NCBI GenBank assembly: GCA_001821935.1
Contig: MHOU01000011.1
Location: 47,022-89,441, forward strand
Reading direction: 5' to 3'
From: Candidatus Staskawiczbacteria bacterium RIFCSPHIGHO2_02_FULL_43_16
GTDB taxonomy: Bacteria > Patescibacteriota > Minisyncoccia > Minisyncoccales > Staskawiczbacteraceae
DNA length: 42,420 nt
Positions 6,670-7,607 of this stretch are shown piece by piece. Position numbers and translations under genes: made by a program. The notes under the pieces were generated by a model. That model was not told the DNA's origin and made no database searches. It saw only the letters and a program-made list of their open reading frames with translations. Each line of letters starts with the position of its first letter. Within the stretch, counting starts at the first letter, position 1.

Positions 6670-7353
6670 ATGAGTCTTGGCAGCATTGACACGGCGACTG
6701 GCAAAAGGCATCTGGATATTCCCCATGTCCAAGTTGCAAGCATGGTACTTGGTGACCGGAGTAAGCCAGAGGGGCGCCCCTTGCCCGCACCTACTTCTTC
6801 GTTGGACGGATTAAAAAAGTATGTCCAACGAGCTGCGGCCATTGGCTATGAGCCGGATCCTGTTCATGTGCTTTATGAACAGCTCAAGATCGTCATCGCC
6901 GAGAACAACATCCTTCTCTACGACGACAAAGCTGTCCATGAGTGGATGTGTAAGATGGCTCAAAAGCAGGGGCCGAGGATGAAATGGGTGTGGAAATCTC
7001 TCACCAAGCCGCTCGAGCAGTTGATCGGAAGGGAGGCTGCGTGGAGTATTCACTACCAGTACAAAGCCTACGAATTGAAGATCGATGGCTATTATGGCGA
7101 AGTCGACAGGACAAGCCGGTACACCAAAATCATTCCCGAAGCAGTGCTGGCAACGGCTGAAACCATCCTCAAACACTTCAAGAAAACAGACCCCATCTGC
7201 TTGTTGGTGTCTGACTACGCAGTGGTCCAGCCGGATCCATTCTTAGCGGTGGCGGTGCCGCAGTTTCCGTTCCTGATCGTTGACTTCTGGGACGAACCCG
7301 GGTTTCAACCGAAAGCCGCGGAAACGAATACGCAAAAAGGGCTAAACAAGTAA
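6670..7353 (+). CDS. Uncharacterised 227-residue soluble protein
   Basis: I do not recognise a characterised family. The start is set by AAGGAG eight bases upstream of ATG. The protein has no signal peptide or membrane segment and is rich in W, Y and K. A conserved-looking C-terminal block reads DPFLAVAVPQFPFLIVDFWD followed by EPGF. The gene stands alone: its own promoter (6586), strong ribosome binding site and terminator (7382). Codon choice is more balanced, with many C-ending codons, than in rpoBC or ftsK, which suggests a different history. The same stand-alone design is seen for the DGR target gene (22065) and the metallopeptidase gene (39259). Function cannot be assigned from sequence; that it is a real gene is well supported. 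Confidence 0.8.
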   Translation: MSLGSIDTATGKRHLDIPHVQVASMVLGDRSKPEGRPLPAPTSSLDGLKKYVQRAAAIGYEPDPVHVLYEQLKIVIAENNILLYDDKAVHEWMCKMAQKQGPRMKWVWKSLTKPLEQLIGREAAWSIHYQYKAYELKIDGYYGEVDRTSRYTKIIPEAVLATAETILKHFKKTDPICLLVSDYAVVQPDPFLAVAVPQFPFLIVDFWDEPGFQPKAAETNTQKGLNK

Positions 7354-7381
7354 CGCACTGCGTTACGGCGAAGCCATTCCG

Positions 7382-7414
7382 AGCCCGATGATTTACAAAT
7401 CACCGGGCTTTTTT
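7382..7414 (+). terminator. Terminator of the gene at 6670
   Basis: A long stem pairs AGCCCG-TGATT with AATCA-CGGGCT around one A.C mismatch, followed by six T residues. Confidence 0.85.
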
Positions 7415-7437
7415 CATGTAAAAAATTAATGGAGCGA

Positions 7438-7562
7438 GGGTTGCGATTCAAAGGACGCTTCGCAGGTGATTTTGCATGGTCCCGCGAAGCGGGAAAATTA
7501 CCGAGACGCGAACAGTCATTTCTCGCTGGAGAAATGAACTGTGACCTTTGAACCGCATACCC
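7438..7562. ncRNA. Structured three-way-junction element (candidate RNA or mobile repeat)
   Basis: This 125-base intergenic stretch folds almost completely. The closing stem pairs 7438-7454 with 7545-7562, 16 base pairs with one A.C mismatch and one bulged base. Inside it, CGCTTCGC (7456-7463) pairs with GCGAAGCG (7484-7491). A second arm pairs ACAGT plus CATTTCTC (7512-7524) with GAGAAATG plus ACTGT (7529-7542) around a GCTG loop. The hairpin CCCGC-GAA-GCGGG (7481-7493) competes with the first inner arm. It lies between a terminator and the ftsK promoter. It could be a small RNA, a switch, or a dispersed palindromic element; the strand is not determined. Confidence 0.55.
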
Positions 7563-7577
7563 GAGCGGAATATCCAC

Positions 7578-7607
7578 TTGAATATTTACAAAACCAGGTG
7601 GTACAAT
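7578..7607 (+). promoter_or_regulatory. Promoter of ftsK
   Basis: TTGAAT, an 18-base spacer and TACAAT, predicting a start only about 6 bases before the ATG at 7620. Confidence 0.55.

Follow-up and report, generated by a model that had tools for sequence, protein, structure and literature searches.

The sequence that precedes ftsK in the analysed window (the whole 42,420-nucleotide stretch of contig MHOU01000011.1 from Candidatus Staskawiczbacteria bacterium RIFCSPHIGHO2_02_FULL_43_16) is a structured element of 135 bases that is, with a probability of about 85%, a copy of a mobile repeat. Eight copies in its own genome, near-identical copies at separate sites, sharp ends, a junction that is filled in some genomes and empty in another, and unlike copies at shared junctions all agree with 'mobile palindromic repeat', one of the readings offered in a preliminary description of this DNA. 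The element is a widespread, newly found variant of the REP/MITE kind, and what is unusual in it is its branched fold, its recurrence across the phylum, its sharp ends, and its preferences for one strand and for the neighbourhood of stop codons.

Patescibacteria have very small genomes, yet many of them carry the element, and a covariance model is now ready for the annotation of intergenic DNA that is otherwise 'empty'. Covariation lets the active strand and the fold of a mobile repeat be read, and the strand bias opens a way to test whether mobility is linked to the replication fork. Should the mover prove new, it would represent a new transposition or recombination system.

Structure and ends of the element

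The preliminary description had recognised a 16-bp closing stem and two inner arms between positions 7438 and 7562, and the computed fold bears this out. The minimum-energy structure of this interval is a three-way junction with a closing stem of 16 pairs and two arms, at -58.4 kcal/mol compared with -32.5 +/- 3.3 kcal/mol for shuffled sequences (n=200; z -7.96), and none of the 200 shuffles matched the native energy. Homology between near-identical copies, together with a scan for end motifs, places the ends of the element slightly outside this interval (Table 1). The 5'-GCGAGG/CCGAGC-3' foot formed by these ends could contain a G-C pair and, we presume, tandem G.A pairs.

The hairpin at 7481-7493 (CCCGCGAAGCGGG), which had been thought to compete with one of the arms, is instead the tip of the first arm, P2. 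Both coexist in the minimum-energy fold, and the tip hairpin is found at the same place in most of 18 compared copies. On the reverse strand the minimum is a different fold, in which CGCTTCGC pairs with GCGAAGCG, and the bases of this alternative pairing are not kept among the same 18 copies. The suggestion that the element is a switch is not supported, because the hairpin belongs to an arm, copies do not preserve the alternative pairing, and there is no fixed position relative to gene starts.

The proposed setting between a terminator and the ftsK promoter survives in part. A promoter-like site on the + strand does follow the element, as a match to the consensus. The terminator rests on a hairpin and T run at approximately 7381-7415, seen by eye only, downstream of a + strand ORF that ends at 7353; a scan allowing loops of 3-8 only returned no + strand terminator near the element and a single minus-strand site at 7366-7350. 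The view that the element encodes no obvious protein is upheld: there is no coding signal, copies range from 92 to 188 bases as aligned to the model, and their changes follow base pairing.

Table 1. Positions (in the window) of the element before ftsK, its parts and the adjoining promoter-like site
Feature	Position	Strand	Basis
Whole element, AGCGAG ... CGAGCG	7433..7567	+	Near-identical copies with unlike flanks have the same ends; end-motif and fold scan
Left end, AGCGAGG	7433..7439	+	Folds
Closing stem P1, 5' strand	7438..7454	+	Fold; covariation among 72 copies
Arm P2	7456..7510	+	Fold, copy comparison, covariation
GNA/GA internal loop in arm P2	7462-7464 / 7503-7504	+	Fold, copies
Bulge GCATGGT in arm P2, conserved and unpaired	7474..7480	+	Pattern count, 151 copies
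Tip hairpin of arm P2	7480-7494	+	Fold, copies
Arm P3, with GCTG loop 7525-7528 and single bulged A 7537	7512..7542	+	Fold, copies
Closing stem P1, 3' strand	7545..7562	+	Fold; covariation
Right end, CCGAGCG	7561..7567	+	End comparison, end-motif scan
Promoter-like site before ftsK, outside the element, just downstream	7578..7607	+	Consensus match only

Covariation and recurring motifs

Compensatory change is found in nearly every part of the fold. Among 72 copies from the family, 47 of the 48 pairs have changed on both sides, including all 16 model pairs of P1, and the figure is already 43 of 48 among the 18 copies from the genus. In the 72 copies, double-change cells number 1118 versus 330 in shuffles, and 90.9% of cells are paired versus 56.8% in shuffles and 34-50% in slid controls. 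Because the copies were aligned by fitting to the model, which biases the result towards its structure, these controls outweigh the raw percentages. The fold of the element is under selection.

Pattern scans covered 151 copies: the 72 from the family, 29 from the order, and 50 distant copies from searches of the order up to the phylum. The motifs that recur unpaired are the GNA/GA internal loop, the GCAYGGT bulge and the GCTG/GCAG loop. By pattern, the bulge reads GCATGGT in 67 of the 151 copies and GCACGGT in 14, and the looser form GC(N)(N)GG is found in 140, while CGNAG is present in the P2 region of 122. CGC[TAC]GG occurs beyond base 60 in 126 copies, a loose scan given that the same pattern is also found within the first 60 bases (arm P2) of 69. 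The typical model match is a three-way junction with a median length of 128 bases.

Copy number and distribution

The host genome comprises 740,502 bases in 12 contigs, and the window holds one copy of the element. BLAST against the host genome returned one further full-length match, 76% identical, along with two partial matches and one that is chance-like. A covariance model built from three copies found 18 copies in 5 of the 13 genomes of the genus, and minimum-energy folding gives 16 of these a three-way junction with both arms; in the remaining two (L106 and L107) arm P3 contains a long G+C-rich insert, and part of the fold differs. A model built from the 18 copies gave 72 matches in 17 of the 36 family genomes (E up to 0.01), 8 of them in the host genome, and no match in the other 19. 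The second-round model leaves out one duplicate (L003) and, in L090, a match on the minus strand (24.4 bits). The search by BLASTN and covariance model that had been recommended at the outset was productive, with many copies found.

The two copies with inserts are both from the host genome, L106 being L146:8350-8523 and L107 being L143:9471-9647, and in each the insert is an extra long G+C-rich hairpin in arm P3. The arms of the element tolerate insertions.

Beyond the family, with stricter filters than in the family search, matches were found in 98 of 246 genomes of the order, representing 69 of 148 genera, and in 27 of 379 genomes of a phylum sample (3 in the order, 3 more in the class and 21 outside the class). 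Among these matches are one in G116, a genome from another family of the order (E 6e-31), and one in G458, outside the class (E 2e-22).

An Rfam 15 scan of the window returned tRNA only and no family matching the element, and a further comparison with Rfam 15 gave two chance-level matches (E 3.5 and 10). Two pattern scans of viral contigs produced 8 matches that we attribute to chance, none having the fold of the element. The family was not found in the literature on palindromic repeats, transposases and noncoding RNA of Patescibacteria and Parcubacteria, as represented by titles and the starts of abstracts, which does not prove its absence from print; it has apparently not been described previously.

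Insertion sites and evidence for mobility

Where nearly identical copies have unlike flanks, what they have in common is the sequence from AGCGAG to CGAGCG only, except for approximately 14 extra bases on the left in genome G016. Both feet are present in 52 of the 72 family copies, 21 of the 29 order copies and 12 of the 50 distant copies, and where feet are lacking, the closing stem is often longer. Direct repeats of at least 5 bases were found at the ends of 5 of 87 copies versus 2.7 +/- 1.5 in shuffles: there is no target duplication beyond chance in the 87 copies with recognisable ends, a test that leaves out the 64 of 151 copies whose ends are not recognisable.

Six pairs of copies are at least 95% identical (95-98%); in five both members come from the same genome (G016, G031), and in the sixth from two congeners. 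Ten pairs that occupy shared junctions (six with both neighbours in common, four with one) are 18-68% identical, with a mean of 38 that is close to the 39 +/- 13 of all pairs. Judged by their sequences, most of the shared-junction copies are best read as independent insertions. Shared junctions had also been considered as proof of descent, a use mostly rejected, the copies being for the most part no more alike than random pairs. In one such pair (L136:13770 and L138:8446) the alignment continues across the element, at 74% over 374 bases, and these two may descend from a single insertion.

At one junction the element is present in G010 and G022 in opposite orientations, and at another, G016 and G031 carry the element where G015 has a gap of 11 nt only. 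One element lies inside another, apparently nested, at L134:8071, and close tandem or inverted neighbouring elements occur in G191 and G207.

No full element was found at the junction before ftsK in the ftsK loci of 31 relatives, several of whose contigs start in or near ftsK. The L011 locus has a weak match (21.9 bits, E 0.0023) that covers bases 1-71 and is truncated where the contig begins, with the ftsK match at 499; the L022 locus has a chance-level match (E 0.14), and the L028 locus contains a good match, but not at this junction. As a separate observation, made by eye, different long palindromes lie upstream of ftsK in three other Staskawiczbacteria (L009, L011 and L015), and this intergenic region may be an insertion hot spot.

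Gene context and strand preference

Seventy family copies have a neighbouring gene on the right. In 64 of them this gene runs antisense and turns its stop codon towards the element, and in 50 of these 64 the stop is no more than 20 nt from the end of the model match. Measured from the end motif, the distance to the stop is 0-6 nt in 35 of the 49 family copies that have both an end motif and a near stop, and zero in ten. Within the wider range of -10 to 60 nt are 58 of the 64 antisense-right copies, 9 of which have no end motif. In at least three family copies the ORF as called ends within the element. Among the 54 family copies that have an antisense neighbour on the left, the start of this gene is no more than 20 nt away in 11. 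Two exceptions, the window copy and L143:9471, stand before gene starts. Among distant copies the preference is weaker, the right-hand neighbour being antisense in 29 of 49, with its stop within 23 nt in 19 of the 29. These neighbours were called by a simple longest-ORF script, and single cases may err, as with a spurious + strand ORF over groES in L133.

GC skew on the strand of the element is negative in 65 of 72 family copies, 23 of 29 order copies and 37 of 50 distant copies, related and identical copies being counted, such that the G-poor strand carries 125 of the 151. The host genome supplies 4 of the 7 exceptions with positive skew in the family, the window copy included. In the window's family, replication and gene direction are confounded, and the handful of copies in which the two disagree fall on either side. 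Genome G558 is a single contig of 998 kb with six copies between 120 and 948 kb, all on one strand (skew -0.22 to -0.40) despite mixed local gene direction, which points to replication. This bias may, however, belong to the inverted-repeat element that carries at least two of the six copies.

Mismatches within the stems bear on the strand that folds. When the + strand is folded without G.U pairs, 1x1 mismatches are G.T in 36, 13 and 25 cases versus A.C in 16, 6 and 12 for the family, order and distant sets (74 versus 34 in total); copies favouring G.T number 26, 7 and 16 versus 10, 4 and 8 favouring A.C, a difference that is significant in the first set only (p 0.011). The predicted RNA energy is lower for the + strand in 133 of 145 distinct copies, 6 identical rows having been dropped. 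The excess of G.T over A.C indicates that the + (G-poor) strand is probably the one that folds, whether as RNA or as single-stranded DNA.

Candidate movers

A Y1 (HUH) transposase, the obvious candidate by analogy with REPs, was detected in 75 of the 98 genomes of the order that carry the element versus 56 of the 148 that do not (odds ratio 5.4, p 2.6e-9, with no correction for descent or genome size; detection at E up to 0.001, with 1 of the 131 below the family cut-off). In the other 23 element-bearing genomes, some with 6-8 copies, no Y1 gene was found. The host genome has one Y1 gene with no element near it, and among 30 Y1 loci scanned, from 48 Y1 matches in the family, one has an element within approximately 1.5 kb. 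Ten Y1 loci inspected by eye have other short palindromes instead, on both sides in seven and on at least one side in three. Loci at which short palindromes flank the Y1 gene on both sides include L089, L154, L157, L159, L167, L169 and L170, an example being GTGGGACGTCCGACGTCCCAC in L169, and these palindromes look like the Y1 genes' own REP-type sites.

Two other movers were considered and set aside. An integron is rejected: its integrase (TIGR02249) is above the cut-off in none of the 36 family genomes, with weaker matches in 36 of 36 and in 14 of 14 controls. IS1595, a DDE transposase family, is too rare to be the mover, being present in 9 of 246 genomes of the order, 5 of which carry the element.

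In two distant groups the core of the element lies inside a longer one. In G118 and G096 (L232-L239) it sits within a 233-base MITE with inverted repeats GGGTAAAGT...CGGACC, near-identical across these two genera of one family and flanked by exact 7-base duplications in 6 of 8 copies, that is, DDE-type transfer there. In G558, as seen by eye, the copies at L259 and L261 lie within another inverted-repeat element (TTATTTTGC...GCGATTA), with flanks alike at the two sites.

Relation to known systems

In an integron attC site the folded strand is antisense to the gene and adjoins its stop codon, unpaired bases serve for recognition, and the R boxes read GTTRRRY. The element resembles attC in that its folded strand is antisense to the gene and adjoins the stop in most family copies, but it ends in AGCGAG/CGAGCG, has no R boxes by eye, and belongs to a family in which no genome has an integrase over the cut-off. 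Like MITEs it is short, non-autonomous and dispersed, and its core does occur inside such elements in G118/G096 and in at least two G558 copies; unlike them, it has no terminal inverted repeats with target duplication in the window's family, where homology mostly ends at the foot.

To our knowledge, a three-way junction with wide covariation is not described for the enterobacterial repeat units RU-1/ERIC and RU-2. These units, of 127 and 168 bp, are small mobile sequences between genes, and they are like the element in size and intergenic spread, as far as comparison by description goes (PMC2759123, partial text).

The element is also close to the REP/RAYT system (TnpA-REP; GTAG/CGTC-tagged). 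REPs lie mostly downstream of genes, and their GTAG ends often supply a TAG stop (PMC3733652, partial text); they are hairpins with guide tetranucleotides, occur in REPtrons, and are described as species-specific (PMC6006769, partial text). Like them, the element is dispersed, intergenic and mostly downstream of genes, often touching stop codons; it forms imperfect hairpins with recurrent mispaired bases, shows no flanking duplication, and co-occurs with Y1 genes in the order. It differs in being branched and approximately 135 bases long, whereas REPs are single hairpins of 20-40 bases (PMC3733652, partial text) or 21-65 bases (PMC6006769, partial text). It also has AGCGAG/CGAGCG feet rather than GTAG or CGTC, is rarely near Y1 genes, where other palindromes are found, and has a fold that recurs over the phylum rather than within a species.

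Proposed mechanism and alternatives

We propose that the element is a copy of a non-autonomous, REP-like mobile repeat, the + strand of which would fold into a fixed three-way junction recognised by a trans-acting enzyme. The folded strand would be single-stranded DNA exposed around replication. The enzyme may recognise the bulge, the loop and the AGCGAG/CGAGCG foot, and it would move or copy the element without target duplication, in the manner of HUH (Y1) enzymes on REPs. Beside a stop codon an insertion might survive because it does the least harm there, or the site itself may be preferred.

That the element moved as folded single-stranded DNA falls just short of an even chance, and a Y1 enzyme as its mover is tentative and somewhat doubtful. 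Counting against a folded DNA moved by Y1 are the element-bearing genomes that lack Y1, the Y1 loci that have no element nearby, the small share of distant copies with both feet, and the core found within inverted-repeat elements in two distant groups, in one of them with DDE-type duplications. Targeting of the lagging-strand template is known from IS608 and ISDra2 (PMC6006769, partial text), and a G-poor folding strand would be the opposite of what insertion of the folding strand into that template should give. A broader idea, unlikely as it stands, is a phylum-wide mobile class in which a branched single strand (DNA, or RNA primed at the fork) would insert next to stop codons in a replication-strand-specific manner, by way of a mover unrelated to RAYT, integron or DDE enzymes and with core and foot as exchangeable modules.

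The foremost alternative, also unlikely, is that the active fold is a + strand RNA, either a small RNA or a retro-mobile intermediate, and that the copies in the genomes are its genes or cDNA insertions. The mismatch bias on the + strand, where exceptions to compensatory change are G.T more often than A.C, would also fit an RNA, as would the lower RNA energy of this strand in most distinct copies and the recurring motifs of the internal loop, bulge and terminal loop. Priming on the nascent strand could also give the replication-strand bias. However, G.T is the better tolerated mismatch in DNA as well. Most family copies are antisense to the neighbouring genes, and where a gene starts within 20 nt on the left there is little room for a promoter of the element's own; no common promoter was seen in the flanks by eye, and no Rfam family matches.

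If instead the reverse strand were the functional one, transcribed with the gene as a terminator or mRNA-protecting structure after the stop codon, the antisense right-hand neighbours and their close stops would be as expected, and REPs, which lie mostly downstream of genes (PMC3733652, partial text), can stabilise mRNA (PMC6006769, partial text). We consider such a 3'-end element decidedly unlikely, because the mismatch bias favours the opposite strand, two copies (that of the window and L143:9471) precede the start of a gene, most shared junctions hold copies of dissimilar sequence, one of these junctions has no element in a relative, and a called ORF ends inside the element in at least three copies.

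If a DDE transposase moved the element as a MITE and the three-way junction were a passenger, this would account for the 233-base element of G118 and G096 with its duplications and for the copies within an inverted-repeat element in G558. This reading is improbable for the window's family, in which most comparisons show homology ending at the AGCGAG/CGAGCG foot and there is no sign of duplication; IS1595, the single DDE family examined, is moreover confined to few genomes. A chance palindrome or a template-switch product without function is very unlikely, to the point of being negligible: template switching can perfect long palindromes and in this way mimic compensatory change, but the asymmetric bulge and the loop motifs recur over the phylum sample, and the best-scoring distant matches named above lie in another family of the order and outside the class.

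To return to the mobile repeat, the same feet on other cores, along with the same core within other ends, make core and foot look like exchangeable modules, and palindromes with the same foot and other cores suggest one mover handling several types of element. Long palindromes with AGCGAG/CGAGCG ends that the model missed are present at L141:18172-18312 (minus strand; host genome, contig C11), L015:2296 (minus strand), L138:1353 and L139:1292.
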